Shown one piece after another: positions 19,344 through 30,930 of a stretch of 64,000 nucleotides of DNA. How positions within the stretch are numbered: position 1 is the first letter of the stretch; each line of letters starts with the position of its first letter. The translations under genes and the position numbers were made by a program. Source of the DNA: Desulfurobacteriaceae bacterium (GTDB lineage Bacteria; Aquificota; Aquificia; Desulfurobacteriales; Desulfurobacteriaceae); NCBI GenBank assembly GCA_027068415.1, contig JAMOTD010000009.1, positions 1 to 64,000 on the forward strand, in the 5' to 3' direction. The notes beneath the pieces are model-generated. The model saw only the letters and a program-made list of their open reading frames with translations. It was not told where the DNA came from and made no database searches.

Positions 19344-19426
19344 AGGAGGCAAAATTCAGCAGGGGTGTGCTGGTTTATAGATTAGGATATTGGATTAGTT
19401 TGTCCCTTTATAATTTGGAGGGTATT

Positions 19427-20746
19427 TTGGAGAAATGCAGGGTTTTACTTGTTGAGGACGACCGGACTCAGAGGGAGCTCCTTACCGAACTTTTAGAAGA
19501 GGAGGGCTTTTCGGTCACTTCGGCCTCAAGCGGTGAAAGGGCCCTTGACCTCTTCAGGAAGGAGCACTACGACGCAGTTATTACCGATGTTCGCCTTCCC
19601 GGTATGAGCGGTTTGGAGCTCCTACAGAAGTTAAAAGAGCTTGAGCCCGCTGTTGAAATAATAGTGATAACTGCTTTCAGCAGCGTTGATGATGCTGTAA
19701 AGGCTATAAAAATGGGGGCTTTTCACTACGTAACAAAGCCCTTTGAGCCCGAAGTTCTGGTTAACCTGCTCAGGAAGGCCTGCAAGCTGAGACTCCTCTC
19801 TAAACCTTCAAGGGAGTGTTGCGGTCTGGTTTACTCCTCAAAGGTTATGGAGAATTTGATTAATCAGGCCTCACTCTTTGCCCGCTCCGATGCTCCCGTT
19901 TTAATAACCGGTGAAAGCGGTAGCGGTAAGGAGCTCCTTGCCCGGTTTATCCACAGGGAGAGCGGTAGAAAGGGGGAGTTTGTTGCGGTTAACTGCGGAG
20001 CTCTCCCCAAGGAGCTCTTTGAGGCCGAGCTCTTCGGCTACGAGAAGGGAGCCTTCACCGGAGCAACCTCTTCCAAAAAGGGGCTTGTTGAGGAGGCCGA
20101 AGGGGGAACTCTCTTCCTTGACGAAATCGGCGAGCTCCCCTTAGAGCTCCAGCCTAAACTCCTGCGTTTCCTTCAGGAGGGAGAGTTCAGAAGGGTGGGG
20201 AGCACCAAGCTCAGAAAGGCCGACGTTCGGATTGTAGCCGCAACAAACAGAAACTTAAAGAGAATGGTTGAAGAGGGCAAGTTCAGAGAAGACCTGTACT
20301 ACCGGCTGAGCGTTTTAACTCTTAATATACCGCCCCTCAGAGAGAGGCCTGAGGACATTCCCGTTTTGATTGAGCACTTCTTAAGGAAGTACTCCGAAAA
20401 GTACTCAAAAGAGGTTAAAATAACCCCCGAAGCCCTTGAGCTTCTTTTGTCTTACTCCTATCCCGGAAATGTCAGGGAGCTTGAAAATCTGATTCACCGT
20501 TTAGTTATCCTTTCAAGGGGAGAGGTTGATAGAGCTCTCCTTACCTCCCTTATGAACCTGCCTTCCCCTTCGACTTCCTTTACTCCCGACCTTTCAAAGC
20601 CTTTGCCTAAGGTAATTGAGGAGGTTGAGCGGGCAATGATAGAGGAGGCCTTAAGGAGGGCCAACTTTGTCCAAACGAGGGCTGCAAGGCTTTTGGGAAT
20701 AGACGAAAAATCTCTGAGGTATAAGAGGAAGAAGTATGGAATTTAG
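19427..20746 (+). CDS. NtrC-family sigma-54 response regulator
   Basis: The start is taken as TTG 19427, just after GGAGGG, because the receiver domain begins immediately (CRVLLVEDD). The product (439 residues) has a receiver with phospho-acceptor Asp54 (VITDVRLPGMSG). The AAA+ domain shows Walker A GESGSGKELL, the sigma-54 contact loop GAFTGA and LFLDEIGELP. The C-terminal Fis-type helix-turn-helix is TRAARLLGIDEKSLRYKRKK. It therefore activates sigma-54 promoters when phosphorylated. The kinase gene overlaps its end by 11 bases. The adjacent -24/-12 promoter at 21962 is the obvious target. Confidence 0.95.
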   Translation: MEKCRVLLVEDDRTQRELLTELLEEEGFSVTSASSGERALDLFRKEHYDAVITDVRLPGMSGLELLQKLKELEPAVEIIVITAFSSVDDAVKAIKMGAFHYVTKPFEPEVLVNLLRKACKLRLLSKPSRECCGLVYSSKVMENLINQASLFARSDAPVLITGESGSGKELLARFIHRESGRKGEFVAVNCGALPKELFEAELFGYEKGAFTGATSSKKGLVEEAEGGTLFLDEIGELPLELQPKLLRFLQEGEFRRVGSTKLRKADVRIVAATNRNLKRMVEEGKFREDLYYRLSVLTLNIPPLRERPEDIPVLIEHFLRKYSEKYSKEVKITPEALELLLSYSYPGNVRELENLIHRLVILSRGEVDRALLTSLMNLPSPSTSFTPDLSKPLPKVIEEVERAMIEEALRRANFVQTRAARLLGIDEKSLRYKRKKYGI

Positions 20747-21902
20747 GGAGCTCCTCTTTAGGAAACTATCACTTTTTGCCCTGCCTTTAACTCTCCTTTT
20801 TACCGTTATGCTCCTAAACTTCTACTTCCTTCGGAGTGAGCTTGAGGACTTCTACTCCCTCGTTATAAAAGAGGAAATAACAAAAGTTCGCTCTGTCGTT
20901 GAGGGAACCCTTTCTGCAGGCGGAGACCCCGTTGACGCTATCAGCTATTATATAGAGCATTCAAAACTACTTGAAGGAGCTACTTTCTACATCGGAGGGA
21001 GGGAGGTTATAGTTCCCGGCTCCGATATATCCGACTCTTACTATCAAGTTGTCTTGGAACTTAAACCCTTTAGGTTCAAACTCTACATTGATACTTCCTA
21101 CCTGAAGAAGCTCAACCGACACATAGAGATAATTTTCCTTTCCCTTCTCTTTTTCACTCTCCTCTTTTTGCTCTTTCTCCTCTACTGGCTCAGGGAGTAC
21201 TACAACGAGAAGATAGAGCGCGAAAAGGAGAGACAGGAGAAGGAGAGGATTAAGAGTATTAACCTCGTAATTCACTCAATCCTCCACGAGGTAAAGAATA
21301 GACTTAACGTTTTAAACCTTTTACTCCACAGGTTTGAAAAAAGCGGTGATAACAAGTACCTTGAGATGCTCAGGGGAGAGCTCCGCTCCTTAAACCGCTA
21401 CGTTGAAGAGACGGCCGACTTGAGGAGACCGGTTTCTCTTGATATTACCGAGTTTTCGGTCGGAGCTCTCTTCAGCGAGCTGAAACTCAGAGTGAAGCCC
21501 CTTGCTGATAAGGGAAAAGTTAAACTCCTTTTTGACTATCGGAACTGCCCCTTGAAAGCTGACTACGAAAGGCTCCTCTCTGCTTTAACCGACCTTGTAA
21601 AAAACGCCATTGAGGCCCTTGAAGGTAAGGATAAAAAGGTTGTGAGGATAGAGGGACGGGGGGACGGGAAGTTTTACACCTTTAGGGTTCTTGACAGCGG
21701 AGGAGAACTACCGAAAGGGGAGCTCTTTAAACCTTTTAAGACCTCAAAGGATAAAGGTTTCGGTTTGGGGCTCTTTAACGTAAAGAGGGTAGCTCTGGCC
21801 CACGGGGGAGAAGTAAGAGCCTTCACACAGGATGGCTGGACAGTTTTTGAGCTGAAAATTCCTGTCGACCGCTCGGAAATTTCCCCGAAAGAAGGAGAGT
21901 AG
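20736..21902 (+). CDS. Membrane sensor histidine kinase
   Basis: The 388-residue kinase has two membrane segments, about 13-32 and 132-151. They enclose a periplasmic sensor of about 100 residues, and a short coiled linker follows. Phospho-acceptor His184 is in ILHEVKNRLNVL, the N box is DLVKNAIEAL and the G box FGLGLFNVKRV. It is the partner of the overlapping NtrC-type regulator. The sensor domain matches nothing I recognise, so the signal is unknown. An envelope or periplasmic signal fits the envelope-directed operon downstream. Confidence 0.92.
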   Translation: MEFRELLFRKLSLFALPLTLLFTVMLLNFYFLRSELEDFYSLVIKEEITKVRSVVEGTLSAGGDPVDAISYYIEHSKLLEGATFYIGGREVIVPGSDISDSYYQVVLELKPFRFKLYIDTSYLKKLNRHIEIIFLSLLFFTLLFLLFLLYWLREYYNEKIEREKERQEKERIKSINLVIHSILHEVKNRLNVLNLLLHRFEKSGDNKYLEMLRGELRSLNRYVEETADLRRPVSLDITEFSVGALFSELKLRVKPLADKGKVKLLFDYRNCPLKADYERLLSALTDLVKNAIEALEGKDKKVVRIEGRGDGKFYTFRVLDSGGELPKGELFKPFKTSKDKGFGLGLFNVKRVALAHGGEVRAFTQDGWTVFELKIPVDRSEISPKEGE

Positions 21903-21960: not shown

Positions 21961-21977
21961 TTGGCACTCCGCTTGCT
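21961..21977 (+). promoter_or_regulatory. Sigma-54 (-24/-12) promoter
   Basis: TTGGCAC-TCCGC-TTGCT matches the sigma-54 consensus at every fixed position. The GG (21963-21964) and GC (21975-21976) dinucleotides have the required spacing of 12. Transcription should begin near 21987, about 22 bases before the first start codon at 22009. It directly follows genes for a GAFTGA-type activator and its kinase. Confidence 0.85.
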
Positions 21978-22008
21978 AATAATACCCGATGTAATGGTTG
22001 AGGTAATT

Positions 22009-22425
22009 ATGAGAAAAATTCTTTTAATAGCTTTTGTTGCAGCATTGACGGGGTTTTTGCCGCAGACGGTAGTTGCTCAAACTCAGGGGGCGAAGATTTA
22101 CGGAGCTTGTTTGGTGCAACCCCTTCCTGATGAACCCTTCTCTAAACATGTGCGTTATCAACCTCAGCACGTTTCCTCTGAGGAATTTAACTCCGTTCTC
22201 TCGGTTAAACATGAAGCCGGTTGTACCTATCTTGGCTCTCACTTTCTTGAGGGAAAAGTTCTAAAGGTTTCTCATAAGCCAGGATTTAGACGCAAGAACG
22301 TAACAAGGTTATTGCCCTTACTGGAATATAAGGGTGTAAACGGCTATGTGGCCTGCAAGTTGATTGATGAAACTGCCGAAAAAACCTACGACTTCTCTAA
22401 GTGGCGCAAGTGGTGCAGGAGGTAG
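22009..22425 (+). CDS. Secreted four-cysteine protein, first gene of the sigma-54 operon
   Basis: The start is ATG 22009. Upstream in-frame codons overlap the promoter and the expected transcript start. The product (138 residues) has a signal peptide (MRKILLIAFVAALTGFLPQT, cleavage near VVAQ), then a compact domain with four Cys: YGACLV, EAGCTY, YVACKL and the C-terminal KWCRR. The motifs GSHFLEGKVLKVS and LLEYKGVNGYVACKLID are unfamiliar. The paired Cys suggest disulfides or metal binding in the periplasm. It is two bases from the next gene. Function unknown. It may be an envelope partner or a substrate of the enzymes that follow. Confidence 0.75.
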   Translation: MRKILLIAFVAALTGFLPQTVVAQTQGAKIYGACLVQPLPDEPFSKHVRYQPQHVSSEEFNSVLSVKHEAGCTYLGSHFLEGKVLKVSHKPGFRRKNVTRLLPLLEYKGVNGYVACKLIDETAEKTYDFSKWRKWCRR

Positions 22426-22427
22426 AG

Positions 22428-23252
22428 ATGCTAAGAAAATTTGTCAGCCTGATGCTCTTTTACTCCCTTCTGGTGATGCTTATCAGCGGTGTGGTTCTCT
22501 TCATAATGCCCCACGGAAGGGTAGCCTACTGGACGGGCTGGACTTTCTTAGGCCTTGATAAAGACCAGTGGGATAATCTCCACATTGTCTTCGGTTTTCT
22601 CATGCTCTTTTTCGGCTTCTGGCACCTCCTCTTAAACTGGAGGGCTATCGTAAACTACTTCAAAACTAAAAATTTCCTCGTTTCAACTCTTTTAACCATT
22701 ATCGTTGCCGTCGGGGCTGTTGCAAACTTACCTCCGTTTAAGAACTTCATTGACTTCGGTGAAAAGATTAAGAACAGCTGGCCTAAACCCGCAACCATGC
22801 CTCCCGCTCCACACGCCGAGCTCTTTCCCCTCTCTAAAGTTGCCCGGATGTTAGGCCTTGAGCCCCGGCAGGCCGTTGAAGTTCTCAGGAGCAGGGGCAT
22901 TAAAGTTCCTTCACCAAATACCACTTTAAAAGAGATTGCAAACCTTAACGGTACTACTCCCGCAAGGGTTTACGAGATTCTCCTTCAGACGTCTCCGAAG
23001 AAAAACTCTTCCGGAATTACTCAGTTCCAACCGGGCTCTGGTATGGGCAGGCTTACTTTAAAGGAGGTCTGCACTCAGCTGAGGATTCCTCTTAACGTTT
23101 GTCTTGAAAGGCTTAGGAAGAGGGGAATTAAGGCAGCTCCCGATTCTCAGCTCAGAGAGATTGCCTTTAGAAACGGACTCTATCCCTATCAGTTAATTGA
23201 AATCTTATTAGGAGGTAAAAATGGGGAAACTTCAGAAGCTGGCCATGAGTGA
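22428..23252 (+). CDS. DUF4405 membrane protein with duplicated C-terminal module
   Basis: The start is ATG 22428 behind GGAGGTAGAG. The 274-residue protein has three membrane segments (about 5-27, 51-70 and 83-101), with His29, His52 and His66 in the PHGR...LHIVFGF...WHLLLNW pattern of DUF4405, a family thought to bind haem b. After a linker come two copies of a module of about 54 residues, at 134-187 and 208-262. Both contain L..V...L......EVLR.RGIK or a close variant, followed by L.EIA..NG..P....EILL. The duplication is unusual for this family. A redox or anchoring role at the inner membrane is inferred. Confidence 0.75.
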   Translation: MLRKFVSLMLFYSLLVMLISGVVLFIMPHGRVAYWTGWTFLGLDKDQWDNLHIVFGFLMLFFGFWHLLLNWRAIVNYFKTKNFLVSTLLTIIVAVGAVANLPPFKNFIDFGEKIKNSWPKPATMPPAPHAELFPLSKVARMLGLEPRQAVEVLRSRGIKVPSPNTTLKEIANLNGTTPARVYEILLQTSPKKNSSGITQFQPGSGMGRLTLKEVCTQLRIPLNVCLERLRKRGIKAAPDSQLREIAFRNGLYPYQLIEILLGGKNGETSEAGHE

Positions 23253-23475
23253 TGAAGGCTTCATCTTTGACCCGGAAACGGGAAGTAGCTTCACTGTTAA
23301 CCAGACCGGTCTCTTTATCCTGAAGCTCCTTAAGGAGGGTAAAAGTCAGGAGGAGGTTGTTGAGGCTTTAACAGAGGAGTTTGACGTGAGCCGTGAGGAG
23401 GCCGCCAGAGACCTGATTGACTTCCTTGAGCAGCTAAGGCTCAACGGCCTTTTAAGGGAGGAGAAAAGTGTATAA
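23221..23475 (+). CDS. PqqD-like RiPP recognition element protein
   Basis: The 84-residue protein fits the PqqD fold family: FIFDPETGSSFTVNQTGLFI, then LLKEGKSQEEVVEALTEEFD and the helix ARDLIDFLEQLRLNGLL. PqqD-type proteins bind the leader part of a ribosomal peptide or protein substrate and present it to modifying enzymes. It has AGGAGG upstream, starts inside the end of the DUF4405 gene and overlaps the ATP-grasp gene by eight bases. A fitting leader-like sequence is encoded at the N-terminus of the decarboxylase two genes later. Confidence 0.85.
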   Translation: MGKLQKLAMSDEGFIFDPETGSSFTVNQTGLFILKLLKEGKSQEEVVEALTEEFDVSREEAARDLIDFLEQLRLNGLLREEKSV

Positions 23476-24496
23476 GGTAGCCGTTTCGGGAATAAATGCC
23501 GTTGATAACCCCGGCCCCGGCGTCGGCATTGCAAAGAGTTTAAAGGAGGGAGATAAGGAGCTCCGAGTCTTCGGCCTTGCCTACGACGCCATGGAGCCGG
23601 GAATCTACATGGACTGGCTGATAGACAGGAGTTTCATAATGCCCTACCCCAGTGAGGGGGAGGAGCTCTTCTTAAACCGGCTCCTCTACATTAAGGAGAA
23701 GTACGGCCTTGATGCGGTAATTCCCGCCCTTGACGCAGAGCTCCCCCTCTTCATAAAAGGCGCCCAGTACCTTAAAAACCTCGGGATAAAAACCTTCCTC
23801 CCGACTCAGGAGCAGTTTAACTTAAGGGCTAAAGATAAACTCCCCGAAGTTGCCGAGAGAATAGGGGTTAAAGTTCCCAGGACAGTTGTCGTTACCTCCT
23901 ACGAGGAGCTCAGTAAAGCCGTCTCCGAGCTCGGCTTCCCCGTTATGATTAAGGGCATCTTCTACAAGGCCTACAAAGTCCAGAATATGGCTCAGGCCAC
24001 CGCCTACTTTAACTCAATAGTCAGTGAGTGGGGCTATCCGATAATCGTTCAGGAGGTGGTCTCTGGTGAGGAGATGAACGTTGTAGGGGTCGGAGACGGT
24101 GAAGGAGGGCACTTCGGCCTTGTGGGAATAAAGAAGCTCTGGATAACCAGCCTCGGGAAAATCTGGACAGGAGTAACCGTAAAGAACGAAAAACTCCTTG
24201 AGGCCGTAGAGGGTTTTGTTTCTGTTTACTCTTGGAGGGGAGCCTTTGAGTTTGAGTGTATAGCTACCGATAGCGACGTCTACCTGATTGAGATTAATCC
24301 CCGATTTCCCGCGTGGGTTTACTTCTCAACGGGAGTCGGCGTAAATCTTCCCTACAGGCTCCTTCAGGCGGCTTTGGGAGTGGAACCAGAAAGGAGCTGG
24401 GATTACGAGGCCGGAAAGCTCTACGTCCGCTACACCGACGATCTCGTTACCGACATGGGTAGATTTCAGAAAATCGTTACTTCCGGGGAGGTGTAG
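23468..24496 (+). CDS. ATP-grasp ligase
   Basis: The 342-residue protein has an N-terminal pre-ATP-grasp domain (VAVSGINAVDNPGPGVGIAKSL). The ATP-grasp core includes FPVMIKGIFYKAYKV, IIVQEVVSGEEMNVVGVG and the metal/catalytic strand FECIATDSDVYLIEINPRFPAW. These enzymes join a carboxylate to an amine through an acyl phosphate. The closest look-alikes are carbamoyl-phosphate-synthase-type and peptide ligases. Start is GTG 23468, overlapping the PqqD-like gene. Together with a decarboxylase, which would create an amine, amide-bond formation on a peptide is a reasonable inference. Confidence 0.88.
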   Translation: MYKVAVSGINAVDNPGPGVGIAKSLKEGDKELRVFGLAYDAMEPGIYMDWLIDRSFIMPYPSEGEELFLNRLLYIKEKYGLDAVIPALDAELPLFIKGAQYLKNLGIKTFLPTQEQFNLRAKDKLPEVAERIGVKVPRTVVVTSYEELSKAVSELGFPVMIKGIFYKAYKVQNMAQATAYFNSIVSEWGYPIIVQEVVSGEEMNVVGVGDGEGGHFGLVGIKKLWITSLGKIWTGVTVKNEKLLEAVEGFVSVYSWRGAFEFECIATDSDVYLIEINPRFPAWVYFSTGVGVNLPYRLLQAALGVEPERSWDYEAGKLYVRYTDDLVTDMGRFQKIVTSGEV

Positions 24497-24497
24497 A

Positions 24498-24632
24498 ATG
24501 GGGTGCCTTCTGGCAGCCGCGGTTCTTTTGGGAGCTCTTTTATTTACTTCCGGCTGCTGCTGCTGTCACCCCTGCGGAGGGGTATGCCAGCATCCCTGTA
24601 AGCACTCTTTAAATCAAGATTTAAGGAGGTAG
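24498..24632 (+). CDS. 44-residue Cys-rich membrane-targeted peptide
   Basis: ATG 24498 has GGGGAGG six bases upstream and sits one base after the ATP-grasp stop codon. Residues 3-19 are a hydrophobic export or anchor segment ending LLFTSG. Next come Cys20-23 in a row, then HPCGGVCQHPCKH, giving seven Cys and three His in 17 residues, then a polar tail. The SGC junction is a weak lipobox (Thr at -3), so lipidation at Cys20 is possible. The last codons are also the ribosome site of the next gene. It could bind a metal or cofactor, or be the peptide modified by this operon. No family recognised. Confidence 0.7.
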   Translation: MGCLLAAAVLLGALLFTSGCCCCHPCGGVCQHPCKHSLNQDLRR

Positions 24633-24635
24633 AAA

Positions 24636-25997
24636 ATGAAAAAGCCCTACGAGAAGCCGGTAATTTTCAAGCTCAAAACCGGCTTTATGAATAAGTTCGG
24701 CGGAGGTTCCTATTTCTTAAAGAAGGTTCGCTCCGAGATAGAGGGGATAAGCGTTGACGAGCTCGTTAAAGAGTTCGGCTCTCCCCTCTTTGTCTTTTCC
24801 GAGAGGAAGCTGAGACAGAAGTTCCGTGAGCTGAAGAATGCCTTTACTCTCCGCTACCCCAACGTTGAGTTCAGCTGGTCCTACAAGACCAACTATCTTG
24901 ACGCTATCTGCGCGATTCTCCACGATGAGGGGGAAACCGCCGAAGTTGTCTCGGAGTTTGAGTACGAGAAGGCGAGGAGGCTCGGAGTTCCCGGCAACAA
25001 GATTATTTACAACGGTCCCTATAAGCCCCTTGATTCCCTGCGTGTTGCAGTCAGGGAGGGGGCAAGAATTAACGTTGACCACTTTGAGGAGATAGCTGAC
25101 CTTGAGCAGGTTGCCGACGAGCTGGGAGCCAAGCCCCGTATAGGCATCAGGCTTAACATGGATACGGGAATTCAACCCCAGTGGAGCCGTTTCGGCTTCA
25201 ACCTTGAGAGCGGTCAGGCTATAGACGCTGTTAAGAGAATTGCCGCCGGAGGCAAACTTGAGCTTGTCGGTCTCCACTGCCACATCGGTACCTTTATCCT
25301 TGAGCCCCGTGCCTACGAGCAGGAAGTAAAGAAGATGGTTGAGTTCGCTTACCGCATTGAGGAGGAGTTCGGGTTTAAAATTGAGTACCTTGATATAGGA
25401 GGCGGTTTCCCCTCAAAGAACAGGCTCAGGGGAATTTACCTCCCTCCCGACGTTGCCGTCCCCTCAGTTGACGAGTTTGCAGAAGGGGTTTGCAATGCTT
25501 TACTCTCATCCCTCCGTCCCGGGGATTACCCGAAATTAATCCTTGAAAGCGGAAGGGCTATAGTTGATGAGGCCGGCTACCTGATTACTACAGTCCACGC
25601 TGCAAAGAGAATGCCCAACGGCAGAAAGGCCTACGTCGTTGATGCGGGAGTAAACATTCTCTTTACCGCTTTCTGGTACCACTTTAACGTTGAGCTTGAC
25701 AGAGAGGTAAACGGCCCGGCCGAACCCTGCATTCTCTACGGCCCCTTGTGTATGAACATTGACGTTGTTGACGATATGGTTCAACTCCCTCCCCTTCCGA
25801 GGGGAACGAGATTAATCCTTTCCCCCGTAGGCGCCTACAACGTTACCCAGTGGATGCAGTTTATCAGGTACAGGCCCAACGTCGTTTTAATCGGGGAAAA
25901 CGGAGAGGTTGAACTAATCAGAGAGGCCGAAGACCTTTCGGACATAGTCAGAAGAGAGAGACTCCCCGAAAGGTTGGAGCTGAAATGGAAAGATTAA
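24636..25997 (+). CDS. PLP-dependent amino-acid decarboxylase with RiPP-leader-like N-terminus
   Basis: The 453-residue fold-type III enzyme is of the diaminopimelate/ornithine decarboxylase group. PLP Lys84 is in FSWSYKTN. It also has GLHCHIGT (His214 and His216), DIGGGFPS, ESGRAIVDEAG, active-site Cys372 in YGPLCMNID, and GAYNVTQW. Unusually, the enzyme is preceded by a 24-residue extension (Tyr5-x-x-Pro8-x-Ile10 ... Gly16 ... NKFGGG). That matches the Y-x-x-P-x-L ... G leader motif that PqqD-like domains grip in lasso-peptide systems. The substrate is unknown, and lysA-type housekeeping is unlikely given the operon. Start ATG 24636 follows TTAAGGAGG. Confidence 0.85.
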   Translation: MKKPYEKPVIFKLKTGFMNKFGGGSYFLKKVRSEIEGISVDELVKEFGSPLFVFSERKLRQKFRELKNAFTLRYPNVEFSWSYKTNYLDAICAILHDEGETAEVVSEFEYEKARRLGVPGNKIIYNGPYKPLDSLRVAVREGARINVDHFEEIADLEQVADELGAKPRIGIRLNMDTGIQPQWSRFGFNLESGQAIDAVKRIAAGGKLELVGLHCHIGTFILEPRAYEQEVKKMVEFAYRIEEEFGFKIEYLDIGGGFPSKNRLRGIYLPPDVAVPSVDEFAEGVCNALLSSLRPGDYPKLILESGRAIVDEAGYLITTVHAAKRMPNGRKAYVVDAGVNILFTAFWYHFNVELDREVNGPAEPCILYGPLCMNIDVVDDMVQLPPLPRGTRLILSPVGAYNVTQWMQFIRYRPNVVLIGENGEVELIREAEDLSDIVRRERLPERLELKWKD

Positions 25998-28048
25998 AGG
26001 TCTACTTTCTCCCTATTCTGAGGAGCTATTCGGCGGTTCTCTTCAACTCAAGTTTCTCAGGAGGAGGAGCTCTCCTCCTTCTGACCTTTTTAAACCCCAA
26101 CCTCGGCTTAGGGGGGTTAGTTGCCGTTATTTCGGCCTACCTCTTTGCCCGACTAATCGGCTTTAAGAGGGAGTTCCTTCGCCTTGACTACTACATCTAC
26201 AACCCCCTTCTGGTGGGCCTTTCCCTGGGCTACCTCTTTAAAGTTTCCCTTCTCAGCCTCCTTTTCTTTGCGGTTGCCGGAGTTATGACCTTTCTCTTAA
26301 CCTACGCCCTCTCTTCCCTCTTCTCCTACTACCTTAAGCTTCCCGTCCTCAGCGTTCCCTTCGTTATAGGGAGTTCCCTCCTCTACCTGGCGAGCGTAAA
26401 GTTCAGTAACCTCTTTGCGATAAACCTCTACCCCCACAGAGCTCCCACCTTTTCTTTTAACCTACCCTTACCCCTTGAAGGCTACCTGAAATCCCTCGGA
26501 GCAATCTTCTTTGTTCCCGATTCATTTGCCGGCTTTGTTATTTTCCTCGTTCTCCTAATGGTCTCACGGATTCTTCTCTTCCTTTCACTTTTGGGCTACT
26601 TTTCGGGAGCCCTCTTTCAGGCCTTTTTAACCGGCTCAACCTATCAAGCCTTTACCGATACTTCTGCCTTCAACTACATCCTTACCTCAATGGCGGTAGG
26701 AGGGGTTTTCCTCATTCCCTCCTTAAGGAGCTACAAATTCGCCCTCCTCTCCTCCCTCATCGCCGTTCCTTTAAGTGCCGGGGCCAAGGTCTTCTGGGAG
26801 AGCTACGGACTTCCCGTTTTTGCCATACCCTTTAACGTCTCAACTCACATGCTCCTCTACGTTTTAATCGCCATCAGCTACTACTCTGTCGTAAAGATTT
26901 ACAAGGGAACTCCCGAAAGGACCCTTGACTACTACCTTACCTACCAGAGGAGGTTTCCCTTTACCGGCAGGGAGCTCCTACCGCCCTTTTCGGGGAAGTG
27001 GACCGTCTGGCAGTCCTTTAACGGCCGATGGACCCACAAAGGCCCCTGGAGGTACGCTCTTGACTTTGTTATTACCGATGAAGAGGGTAAGACGTATAAA
27101 GGGGAAGGCCTTTACCTTACCGACTACTACGCCTTCGGTAAACCCGTTCTCTCTCCCGTTGACGGTGAGGTCGTCTCTGTAGTCTCCAACCTTCCCGATA
27201 ACCCTCCCGGAAAGGCCGATAAAGAGAACAACTGGGGCAATTACGTTCTAATTTACGACAGAAGGGGCTTTTACGTTCTCCTGTGCCACTTTAAGCAGAA
27301 CTCTATCAGGGTAAAGCCGGGAGAGCACGTTGTGAAGGGTACCCTTTTGGGGCAGTGCGGGAACTCCGGCTACTCTCCTCAGCCCCACATCCACCTTCAC
27401 GTTCAGCTCCTTCCCCACTTGGGAGCTCCCACTGCTCCCTTTAACCTTGCCTCTTATCTGTCGGGAGATTTCTTCTACGACTGCGGAGTACCCAGAGAGG
27501 GGCAGGAGATTGAGCCGGTTTACCCAGATAAATACCTATTTAACCGCCTCAACCTCCTGATTGACCAGGAGATGGAGTTTACAGTAGCGGAAGGGAAAAA
27601 GGAACTCCCCCTCAAACTGAAAGTAAAAATGGCTCCCGACGGAACTTTCTACTTAACCGACGGTGCCGCAAAACTCTACTTCGGAATAGGGAACTCTACC
27701 TTCTACTTCTACTACTTTGAAGGAGATATTTCCTCTCCCCTGAAATATTTCTTCTTTGCCGCTCCGAAAATTCCTTTAATTAACAGGGAAGGGATAAAGT
27801 GGAGCGATTACCTGCCCTTTTTATCCCTATCATCTCCCTTAAAGAGGGAGCTCTACCTCTTCCTCTCCTCTTTTGTTCACAACTTTTCATTAACTAAAGT
27901 TAATCTTTTGTTTGCCTCTGCCGACAGGGTAGTATCTGATATAATCTCCCCCGATTCTAAAAGGACGAAAGGAGAGCTTTTAATATCCCCCGATTTTGGT
28001 TTTGAAGAGTTAAAGTTCGGCAATATTGTAATAAGGAGGAAAAGATGA
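25985..28048 (+). CDS. Urea-transporter-like membrane domain fused to M23 peptidase
   Basis: The 687-residue protein has an N-terminal half of about ten membrane segments resembling urea transporters (YNPLLVGLSLGYLF, AFTDTSAFNYILTSMAVGG). Its periplasmic second half carries the lysostaphin-type M23 sites: HKGPWRYALDF (His and Asp), the VLSPVDGEVVSVV strand and the zinc HIHLHVQ pair. The C-terminal 150 residues form an extra beta-rich domain. Such fusions are seen in a few bacterial groups, but their task is not established. The start overlaps the decarboxylase end by 13 bases. It may move a small amine across the membrane and trim or dock to peptidoglycan, which is inference. Confidence 0.88.
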   Translation: MERLKVYFLPILRSYSAVLFNSSFSGGGALLLLTFLNPNLGLGGLVAVISAYLFARLIGFKREFLRLDYYIYNPLLVGLSLGYLFKVSLLSLLFFAVAGVMTFLLTYALSSLFSYYLKLPVLSVPFVIGSSLLYLASVKFSNLFAINLYPHRAPTFSFNLPLPLEGYLKSLGAIFFVPDSFAGFVIFLVLLMVSRILLFLSLLGYFSGALFQAFLTGSTYQAFTDTSAFNYILTSMAVGGVFLIPSLRSYKFALLSSLIAVPLSAGAKVFWESYGLPVFAIPFNVSTHMLLYVLIAISYYSVVKIYKGTPERTLDYYLTYQRRFPFTGRELLPPFSGKWTVWQSFNGRWTHKGPWRYALDFVITDEEGKTYKGEGLYLTDYYAFGKPVLSPVDGEVVSVVSNLPDNPPGKADKENNWGNYVLIYDRRGFYVLLCHFKQNSIRVKPGEHVVKGTLLGQCGNSGYSPQPHIHLHVQLLPHLGAPTAPFNLASYLSGDFFYDCGVPREGQEIEPVYPDKYLFNRLNLLIDQEMEFTVAEGKKELPLKLKVKMAPDGTFYLTDGAAKLYFGIGNSTFYFYYFEGDISSPLKYFFFAAPKIPLINREGIKWSDYLPFLSLSSPLKRELYLFLSSFVHNFSLTKVNLLFASADRVVSDIISPDSKRTKGELLISPDFGFEELKFGNIVIRRKR

Positions 28049-28935
28049 AAAAAGAAGCAGTATTACTTGGAGTCATAGTAACTGCGCTTTTTTCCGGTTC
28101 ATCTATGGGAGCTAACTTAAATCTTCACGGTTATCAAGGACTTTACTGGAGTTATATTGATTATTCGGGTTCTGACCTCAAAAACTATGGCATCAGCAGT
28201 ACCTATTACATATCCGGTTTCGGTAAATACCACGGCGTACAATTTGGTTTTACTTCAACAACCATAGACTACAAAAATAACATTCCAACTTTGAAACAGT
28301 ATGAGCTAACTTTGGTTTACAATAACATGAACGATTGGCTTGAAAATCACACCTTTACTCTTGGCGGGCATTACATCAGCACTACAGATGACCTTAGTAG
28401 AGGAGCTCATACTTTCTTTGCAGACTGTACCTATTCCAACTCCTTCTCCCCCTATTATTACAAGTGGTCGGGTGGTCTTTCCTTCTACTACACCAGGTAC
28501 TCAAACGAGGTCGGCTTCTCCGCCGTTCAGGTTAACCCTCACGGCACTTATAAACTCTTCTCCGATGTCCAAAAAGGCGCTCTCTACATAGACCTTACCG
28601 GCTACGCCATTCACTTGACAAAGGACGAGCCCCTCGGACTCAGTAAGAAGAACTACTACTCACTTGAAGGAGCTCTCAGGTACTACTACGGCCGCTACGA
28701 CTTTAAAGTGGGCGGCTGGGTCGGTCAACAGGTCTTTGCCGTAAAAAACGGAGGTTTCGTAGTTTACAACCTTGCAGAGAAGTATAAAGGAGGAGCTCAG
28801 GCTGAGGTCGGCTATACCTTCAAAAACAGAATCAGACTCTCTACCAGCGTCTCTTATAACAGGTATAAAGAGCTTGCGAGCGATAACGACGTTGACCAGA
28901 CCGCATTTACCGCTTCACTGGGCTACAGGTTTTAG
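28045..28935 (+). CDS. Outer-membrane beta-barrel protein of the sigma-54 operon
   Basis: The 296-residue protein has a signal peptide (MKKEAVLLGVIVTALFSGSSMGA). The rest is alternating polar/aromatic strands rich in Tyr and Gly (YQGLYWSYIDYSG, YYGRYDFKVGGWVG), closing TASLGYRF with the terminal Phe typical of outer-membrane insertion. The barrel probably has twelve to fourteen strands. It overlaps the transporter-peptidase gene by ATGA. The first third is less GC-rich than the rest. It may be the outer-membrane exit or receptor for the product of this operon. Confidence 0.82.
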   Translation: MKKEAVLLGVIVTALFSGSSMGANLNLHGYQGLYWSYIDYSGSDLKNYGISSTYYISGFGKYHGVQFGFTSTTIDYKNNIPTLKQYELTLVYNNMNDWLENHTFTLGGHYISTTDDLSRGAHTFFADCTYSNSFSPYYYKWSGGLSFYYTRYSNEVGFSAVQVNPHGTYKLFSDVQKGALYIDLTGYAIHLTKDEPLGLSKKNYYSLEGALRYYYGRYDFKVGGWVGQQVFAVKNGGFVVYNLAEKYKGGAQAEVGYTFKNRIRLSTSVSYNRYKELASDNDVDQTAFTASLGYRF

Positions 28936-28943
28936 GGGGAGCG

Positions 28944-29606
28944 GTGCTGAGGGCTCTCCTCCTTACTCTCATTTTCTTAAGCTCCTCCGCCTTCGGCCTT
29001 GACTATCAGGAGATAAAGAACTCCTACTACCGCTCTTACCTTTACGAGAGGAGCGGCAACTACGAAGACGCGATAAAGGCCTTAATGCCGGTCTATAAGA
29101 GTTTCCCAAACGGCTATACTGTTAACCTCAGGCTCGGGTGGCTCTACTACCTTGTAAAGAAGTACGCAAACTCCGAGTTCCACTACAAAAAAGCCCTTCA
29201 AGCAGTTCCCTCGTCGGTTGAAGCTATGCTCGGCCTCACCCTTCCCTACATAGCTCAGGGAAAGTGGTCTGATACCGAAGCCCTCTGCTACAGGATTCTC
29301 AGAATTGACTACTACAACTACTACGGAAACCTCAGGCTCTCTTATGCTCTGAGAATGGAGGGTAAGTACTCTATTGCGGAAGCCGTTAATAGGAAGATGC
29401 TCTCAATCTACCCTGCCGACGTTAACTTCCTCCTTGAGCTTGCCCTTTCTCTCTACAACCAAGGGAAGACCGCTTACGCAAAGAGTCTTTTTGAGGATAT
29501 TCTTATCCTTGATCCGGAAAACACAGTTGCAAAAGAGTACTTAAATAGGTTTAAGAACGAAGCTGAGGCAGGAACCGGAAGAGGGGAGAGTAAAAAGAGA
29601 AATTGA
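28944..29606 (+). CDS. Exported TPR-repeat protein
   Basis: The start is GTG 28944 with GGGGGAG upstream. The 220-residue product has a short signal peptide (MLRALLLTLIFLSSSAFG) and about five tetratricopeptide units, for example NYEDAIKALMPVYKSFPNGY, ANSEFHYKKALQAVPSS and AKSLFEDILILDPENT. Periplasmic TPR proteins act as scaffolds for envelope complexes. This is the last gene of the sigma-54 operon and is followed directly by a terminator hairpin, so it probably assembles the barrel and peptidase parts. Confidence 0.82.
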   Translation: MLRALLLTLIFLSSSAFGLDYQEIKNSYYRSYLYERSGNYEDAIKALMPVYKSFPNGYTVNLRLGWLYYLVKKYANSEFHYKKALQAVPSSVEAMLGLTLPYIAQGKWSDTEALCYRILRIDYYNYYGNLRLSYALRMEGKYSIAEAVNRKMLSIYPADVNFLLELALSLYNQGKTAYAKSLFEDILILDPENTVAKEYLNRFKNEAEAGTGRGESKKRN

Positions 29607-29607
29607 G

Positions 29608-30930
<1,323 letters not shown>

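Follow-up and report, generated by a model that had tools for sequence, protein, structure and literature searches.

Gene content and regulation of the operon

The window, a stretch of 64,000 nucleotides from the 1.6 Mb genome of a Desulfurobacteriaceae bacterium, carries a run of nine co-directional open reading frames on the forward strand, designated here A to I (Table 1). Neighbouring frames overlap by up to 32 bp or are separated by a few bases: B and C share 32 bp, C and D 8, F and G 13, and G and H 4, and the gaps between D and E, E and F, and H and I amount to 1, 3 and 8 bp. A first-pass annotation of the sequence had described a sigma-54 operon of nine tightly packed genes, and all nine reading frames are present in this arrangement. 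Its domain assignments agree with the Pfam matches, which comprise DUF4405, PqqD, ATP-grasp, the Orn/DAP/Arg decarboxylases, the urea transporter (UT) together with M23, and TPR. The ATG at 22009 is the most likely start of gene A, because a TTG at 21961 overlaps the promoter; gene B could equally begin at an ATG at 22428.

Table 1. Features of the operon and the adjacent regulatory genes.
Feature	Coordinates	Strand	Basis or remark
NtrC-type sigma-54 response regulator (adjacent, non-core)	19367..20746	+	Pfam Sigma54_activat, Response_reg, HTH_8
Sensor histidine kinase (adjacent regulator, non-core)	20736..21902	+	HATPase_c
Sigma-54 promoter, -24/-12, TGGCACTCCGCTTGC	21962..21976	+	perfect TGGCAC-N5-TTGC
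Gene A, secreted 4-Cys protein (accessory)	22009..22425	+	reduced version of a DUF2202 protein
Gene B, DUF4405 membrane protein (accessory)	22401..23252	+	PF14358, 69.5 bits
Gene C, PqqD-like RRE (core)	23221..23475	+	PF05402, 70.6 bits
Gene D, ATP-grasp ligase (core)	23468..24496	+	PF15632 and PF02655 above cut-off
Gene E, 44-aa Cys-rich putative lipoprotein (accessory)	24498..24632	+	genus-level only
Gene F, alanine-racemase-fold PLP decarboxylase with N-terminal tag (core)	24636..25997	+	PF02784/PF00278
Leader-like tag of gene F, residues 1-28, MKKPYEKPVIFKLKTGFMNKFGGGSYFL	24636..24719	+	motif conservation, predicted disorder
Gene G, urea-transporter domain fused to M23 metallopeptidase (core)	25985..28048	+	PF03253, PF01551
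Gene H, 14-strand outer-membrane barrel (core)	28045..28935	+	AlphaFold model, Foldseek to OmpG
Gene I, secreted TPR protein (core)	28944..29606	+	TPR families; conserved next to H

The sigma-54 site is the sole exact one in the whole window. Sites of the same type occupy the matching position in most Desulfurobacteriaceae examined and in two loci labelled Thermosulfurimonas or Thermodesulfobacteriaceae, so that the promoter proposed earlier is both perfect and syntenic; such sites lie between the regulators and the cluster in L034, L035, L036, L038, L041, L042, L054, L056, L089 and L090. The NtrC-type regulator is the same neighbour in most Desulfurobacteriaceae and in Thermosulfurimonas. The cluster in the family of the window would be switched on through sigma-54 by the adjacent pair of NtrC-type regulator and histidine kinase. 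Elsewhere, the genes upstream of the cluster in a divergent Verrucomicrobiota branch (L166-L168) resemble, by eye, an RNA-polymerase sigma factor and a protein kinase, which suggests another mode of regulation. At the far end of the operon, past the TPR gene and before purD, is a short inverted repeat rich in G+C with Ts after it (29607-29632), which could serve as the terminator of both transcripts.

Conservation of a six-gene core

Six of the nine genes recur together, in the order PqqD-like RRE (C), ATP-grasp ligase (D), tagged decarboxylase (F), UT/M23 protein (G), barrel (H) and TPR protein (I). This order is found in about 110 loci from more than ten phyla by the taxon labels as deposited, some of which, on metagenome-assembled genomes, are doubtful. 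A profile scan of 84,980 species genomes for the ATP-grasp returned at least 552 relatives, and neighbourhoods were compared for the best 80 loci, nearly all of which have the same gene order. These 80 loci are labelled Aquificota, Thermodesulfobacteria, Desulfofervidaceae, WOR-3, Verrucomicrobia, Lentisphaerae, Planctomycetota, Gemmatimonadota, Calditrichota, Ignavibacteria, Kapaibacterium, Firestonebacteria, Eremiobacterota, Riflebacteria, Desulfurellales and Thiomargarita. The labels indicate, as we infer, that the carriers are diderm bacteria, deep-branching thermophiles included. One genome labelled Klebsiella pneumoniae (L108) has a typical verrucomicrobial-type cluster, and its label is probably wrong.

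The ligase and the decarboxylase are inherited together. Among 136 Aquificota genomes the ATP-grasp was found in 43 and the decarboxylase, searched independently, in 42; both are present in 41 of the 44 carriers, with two genomes having only D and one only F. Of the three discordant genomes, one has a ligase fragment at the end of a contig, one a ligase interrupted by a stop, and one a decarboxylase at the start of a contig. The Verrucomicrobiota carry the cluster in 6 of 241 genomes, with D and F adjacent in all six, and contain in addition one tagless relative of the decarboxylase. The ATP-grasp is present in 18/294 genomes from the phylum of a planctomycete and in 37/299 from the phylum of Thiomargarita, and in all three samples the cluster was again present in the loci fetched. 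Distance matrices of the core proteins are correlated (r = 0.87 for D and F, 0.86 for D and G, 0.84 for F and G; 0/999 permutations each), a correlation to which shared ancestry contributes. The earlier annotation had taken linkage across distant phyla as the mark of one system and unlinked relatives as a sign against it; the conserved order and the co-occurrence of D and F speak for the former. Together, these observations are strong evidence that the six core genes are an ancient unit and form one co-inherited system. Each of the families involved is common on its own, and an accidental meeting of LysA, a urea transporter and a porin could be imagined on that ground; the conserved set in many phyla and the co-occurrence already refute such chance neighbourhood, as do the separate LysA-type gene and the score of F below the LysA cut-off (see below), and we regard it as next to impossible.

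Several departures from the typical arrangement were recorded. In Aquificota family f5 the ligase and the decarboxylase are kept on different contigs and the decarboxylase is still tagged; we rejected the reading of its C-D pair as a broken system lacking F, as the tagged F is found elsewhere in the same genomes. A TnpB/OrfB-type gene with IS605 family domains lies directly upstream of the PqqD/ATP-grasp pair of this family in L044:8193-10924. PqqD and part of the ATP-grasp are tandemly duplicated around a 477-aa reading frame in L055:9169-12830 and L074:188-3846. In genome G107 the ATP-grasp (L067:7632-8144) has a stop and is split over frames, and the decarboxylase was not found in the genome, possibly a case of decay of the system in one genome. 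A mobile or defence island was considered and rejected: 72,556 plasmids yielded no good match, the only hit being a 30% ATP-grasp in Streptomyces.

The remaining genes A, B and E are lineage-specific, and the unity of all nine genes, as first proposed, does not hold. Whether the 4-Cys protein, the DUF4405 protein or the Cys-rich peptide is present varies from one Aquificota neighbourhood to the next. Gene A occurs only in Desulfurobacteriaceae and a small number of relatives. In the sister genome L034 the orthologue has a DUF2202 domain (196.8 bits), a ferritin-like family, and the window copy has lost this domain, with a signal peptide and a tail left; a similar short form is seen in L057/L069. 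DUF4405 is encoded in 16 of 133 loci. Neither DUF2202 nor DUF4405 is conserved across loci, and both were rejected as parts of the system; apart from these two and two-component regulators, no further gene recurs near the cluster. Gene E, considered as a possible substrate, is matched in just two other genomes, both of the same genus (L034, L035), and has no leader motif, and it was rejected as a precursor peptide for these reasons.

A candidate docking tag on the decarboxylase

The decarboxylase begins with a stretch that precedes the domain homologous to LysA, and Y5, P8 and I10 of this stretch are invariant in 81 of 81 aligned homologues. Over all fetched loci, the motif [Y/W/F/L]xxPx[I/L/V/M/F] stands at the front of the decarboxylase in 121 of 123 distinct sequences, which bears out the leader-like extension noticed in the first reading. 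The AlphaFold model of F, built from a 17-sequence alignment (mean pLDDT 79.7), assigns residues 1-28 a pLDDT below 50 and shows a confident fold after them. A segment at once highly conserved and predicted to be disordered has the look of a short binding motif. Discrete lasso RREs bind the motif [Y/W]xxPx[L/V/I/F/A] (PMC13381572; see also PMC12710340), which the tag matches.

Gene C, which passes the curated cut-off of PF05402 by a wide interval (70.6 against 23.4 bits), has the residues expected of the partner. In the structure of LppB with its leader, the proline is contacted twice, by N33 at the backbone and by F74 through packing, and the tyrosine hydroxyl forms a bond with D70 (PMC13381572). 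Equivalents of all three, matched by pattern rather than by structure, are found in gene C, and among Tyr-tagged systems they are present in 97/114, 113/114 and 109/114, respectively. The tyrosine-binding Asp follows the tag: it is seen in 113/114 Tyr-tagged systems, in 8/15 Trp-tagged ones and in 0/3 of those tagged with Phe or Leu, which belong to the divergent Verrucomicrobiota branch. Ten of the 18 non-Tyr systems have no Asp, and as these losses span about two lineages, the Fisher probability of 5e-7 for the pattern is not independent evidence per sequence. One locus scored as Leu by script (L240) reads YSSPEL and has the Asp. Genome G645 (L242) has neither the motif on F nor a PqqD gene near the ligase, and a whole-genome profile search of this assembly, whose completeness is unstated, gave no match to PF05402; the joint loss of tag and PqqD rests on this one genome. 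Two further genomes, G804 and G108, have a tagged F and no PqqD beside the ligase, and encode a C-type PqqD elsewhere (82 and 138 bits). Recognition of the decarboxylase tag by the RRE is thus well supported as a prediction from residue patterns.

The tag has a second element, GxxNKFG, which is not needed for RRE binding and counts against docking as its only role. Its strong conservation would be explained if the tag were itself a substrate or carrier, with the ATP-grasp loading an amino acid on GxxNKFG or modifying it and the decarboxylase domain acting in cis. A carrier of this kind has a parallel with BtrK, which decarboxylates carrier-bound glutamate (PMC7857480), and the reading gains from two related loci with a two-ligase arrangement. 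L169 (genome G352) encodes a PqqD, an ATP-grasp, a 64-aa reading frame that contains YEKPMV, another ATP-grasp and a decarboxylase that has no tag and differs in its pocket residues; in L236 a similar tag, YERPMV, is fused to the decarboxylase. Comparison of the two indicates that the tag can be fused to the enzyme or, once, stand on a peptide of its own, and the latter arrangement, with an untagged F alongside, is consistent with a genuine peptide substrate. Against this, no reactive side chain of the tag is universal: Thermosulfurimonas relatives, the divergent Verrucomicrobiota branch and many Planctomycetota have other residues in place of NKFG, and of the tag only the RRE motif is left in them; G645, lacking tag and PqqD, still has D, F and G, with the active-site residues of F intact. 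A tag that is chemically modified is therefore unlikely in our estimate, and we are similarly sceptical, without dismissing it, of the wider reading in which precursor and enzyme are fused in a RiPP-like or carrier-protein-like pathway.

The L169 cluster (L169:6603-10582, minus strand) is divergent and may be a genuine peptide-modifying relative, with its stand-alone 64-aa peptide MKNTEVSRRPEGYEKPMVKRHAVVMTMAPAGCKMGHG... A motif search covering up to 4 kb from D in 37 divergent loci gave no convincing stand-alone leader peptide.

Ligase and decarboxylase chemistry

The decarboxylase should be catalytically active, since the residues of its active site are kept: the PLP lysine K84 in 144/145 sequences, H216 over the PLP in 144/145, and G256 of the Gly loop and the catalytic C372 in 145/145. 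The closest solved relative is FigC, an N-citrylornithine decarboxylase (7kh2, E 5e-57; the best LysA has 1e-48), with which F shares the elements WSRFG, C-M-x-x-D and GAYN. As in FigC, Met follows the catalytic Cys, and it replaces the Glu of the LysA-type C-E-x-x-D in 143/145 sequences. The score of F against the LysA model TIGR01048 (234) falls below the cut-off of 297.9, and a second LysA-type gene is present in the genome at G000:C2:39162; F is therefore not a housekeeping LysA, and the earlier concern that it might be the only LysA of the genome is removed.

The proximity to FigC raises the prospect of a siderophore or metallophore pathway analogous to that of rhizoferrin, in which D would replace the NIS synthetase and F would act like FslC. 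F is indeed closest in the PDB to FigC/FslC, with WSRFG and C-M-x-x-D in common, and the Desulfurobacteriaceae operon includes the DUF2202 gene, of a ferritin-like family. The residues that contact citrate in FigC are nevertheless replaced in F, H357 by Ile in 141/145 and R387 by Gln in 144/145, which rules out F as FslC; its score against the FslC/FigC model NF041039 is 221 bits, below the cut-off of 500. No synthetase or receptor recurs among the neighbours, the barrel is 14-stranded and OmpG-like rather than a TonB receptor, and DUF2202 is not conserved elsewhere. We accordingly hold a metallophore to be quite improbable.

The enzymes FigC, SbnH, AcsE, MccE and BtrK belong together as decarboxylases whose amino-acid substrates are acylated or tethered (PMC7857480). 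An ATP-grasp ligase beside a FigC-type enzyme suggests, by analogy, ligation followed by decarboxylation.

Envelope proteins

Gene G matches the urea transporter family PF03253 at 206.5 bits (cut-off 25) and PF01551 at 44.5 bits, and the roles of its UT and M23 domains are read from these families only. The zinc ligands of M23, H351, D360, H468 and H470 (H..D, HxH), are conserved in 74/75 sequences. The UT domain was assessed at positions that we take to be the urea-site Gln/Glu of dvUT. The Glu of the second half is Ala, Thr or Ser in 74/75, and in the first half Glu is kept in 42/75, with mostly Ala or Gly in the rest. Since the second acidic residue of the urea site is absent at the position so assigned, the solute of gene G is probably not urea.

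Gene H had been called an outer-membrane barrel; the sequence match is weak (E 0.0035), and the AlphaFold model forms a 14-strand barrel. The predicted barrel is closest to OmpG and CymA, with a TM score of 0.64/0.67 and an rmsd of 4.8 against OmpG 2iwv at a sequence identity of only 10%. It has a conserved low-confidence loop, FAVKNxGFVVYNL.

The preserved metal ligands of M23, the presence of the envelope proteins G, H and I throughout, and the diderm carriers would also suit a cell-wall system, in which an amine conjugate is attached to peptidoglycan or to an envelope protein, M23 opens the wall, and H and I serve as anchors. Neither D nor F shows a recognisable signal peptide, both would work in the cytoplasm, and no wall-linking enzyme recurs in the cluster, which makes wall attachment a rather unlikely function.

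Proposed pathway

We lean towards a conserved six-gene module for biosynthesis and transport in which the RRE recruits an enzyme by its built-in leader. In the cytoplasm, the RRE would grip the [Y/W]xxPx[I/L] tag of F and hold the decarboxylase beside the ATP-grasp ligase, a recognition system of peptide natural products being reused for the assembly of an enzyme complex. The ligase would couple an amino acid with either an acyl or an aminoacyl partner, and F would then strip the carboxylate of the conjugate in the manner of FigC, SbnH, BtrK and MccE, with a small amine conjugate remaining. Transfer of this product across the diderm envelope, or its use at the wall, might then fall to the UT channel of the inner membrane and its M23 domain, together with the TPR protein and the 14-strand barrel. 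The more specific claim, of a widespread pathway whose RRE docks a metabolic enzyme bearing a leader, in place of a peptide precursor, and whose ligase-decarboxylase complex makes an undiscovered amine conjugate for the envelope, seems to us evenly balanced between right and wrong.

The first-pass annotation had envisaged a signal-induced system whose product, a modified peptide or a peptide-linked amine, is installed in the envelope or exported across it. A single system with an RRE-type leader is supported; the inclusion of all nine genes and a role of the Cys-rich peptide as substrate are not. A modified peptide is not required, as the sole leader found sits on an enzyme, except in L169.

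Comparison with known systems

No description of a gene set of this composition was found in the open-access literature, and its novelty is provisional. A unit of six genes conserved so widely, for which the papers searched describe no function, suggests that diderm bacteria, deep-branching thermophiles among them, have a small molecule that is yet to be discovered. The nearest parallels each cover a part of the system. The FigA and FigC enzymes of rhizoferrin biosynthesis (FslA/FslC; PMC7857480) likewise pair a ligase with an alanine-racemase-fold decarboxylase, and FigC is the closest solved relative of F. The cluster described here differs in having an ATP-grasp in place of the NIS synthetase, replaced citrate contacts and other transport families, and no tag or RRE is reported for FigC. 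In butirosin biosynthesis, the ATP-grasp ligase BtrJ is paired with BtrK, a decarboxylase of the alanine-racemase fold whose substrate is a tethered amino acid. BtrK (2j66) is among the PDB matches of F, and BtrJ would be the counterpart of D; the butirosin pair uses an acyl carrier protein and has no RRE, tag or envelope proteins.

PQQ biosynthesis likewise employs a discrete peptide chaperone of the PqqD fold. Gene C scores below the cut-off of the PqqD equivalog TIGR03859 (26.3 against 46), and no PqqA, PqqE, PqqB or PqqC, nor any radical SAM gene, was recognised in the operon. The HPr-rel-A PqqD equivalog TIGR04353 is passed (42.2 against a cut-off of 35), and no HPr-kinase-related gene is present among the nine operon proteins.

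The closest likeness in recognition is to the RREs of lasso and LPP systems (B1, LppB; PMC5067487, PMC13381572), which are likewise discrete and PqqD-like and share with the present system the residues that contact the leader as well as the [Y/W]xxPx-hydrophobic motif. In those systems the motif is borne by a short precursor, whereas here it is at the N-terminus of a PLP enzyme; a short precursor with the RRE motif in the cluster is not the rule, the motif being on F in 121/123 and on a separate peptide only in L169. The cluster is also without cyclase, leader protease or known peptide-modifying enzyme, and no leader protease or asparagine-synthetase-like cyclase was found in the operon or recurring among the neighbours. 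RREs serve as a class-independent marker for mining peptide natural products. An RRE that apparently serves a tagged metabolic enzyme across phyla implies that some RRE genes may be misread as orphan RiPP clusters, and, if the proposed pathway is correct, the fusion or splitting of the tag in L236 and L169 would be an evolutionary bridge between RiPP biosynthesis and small-molecule metabolism.
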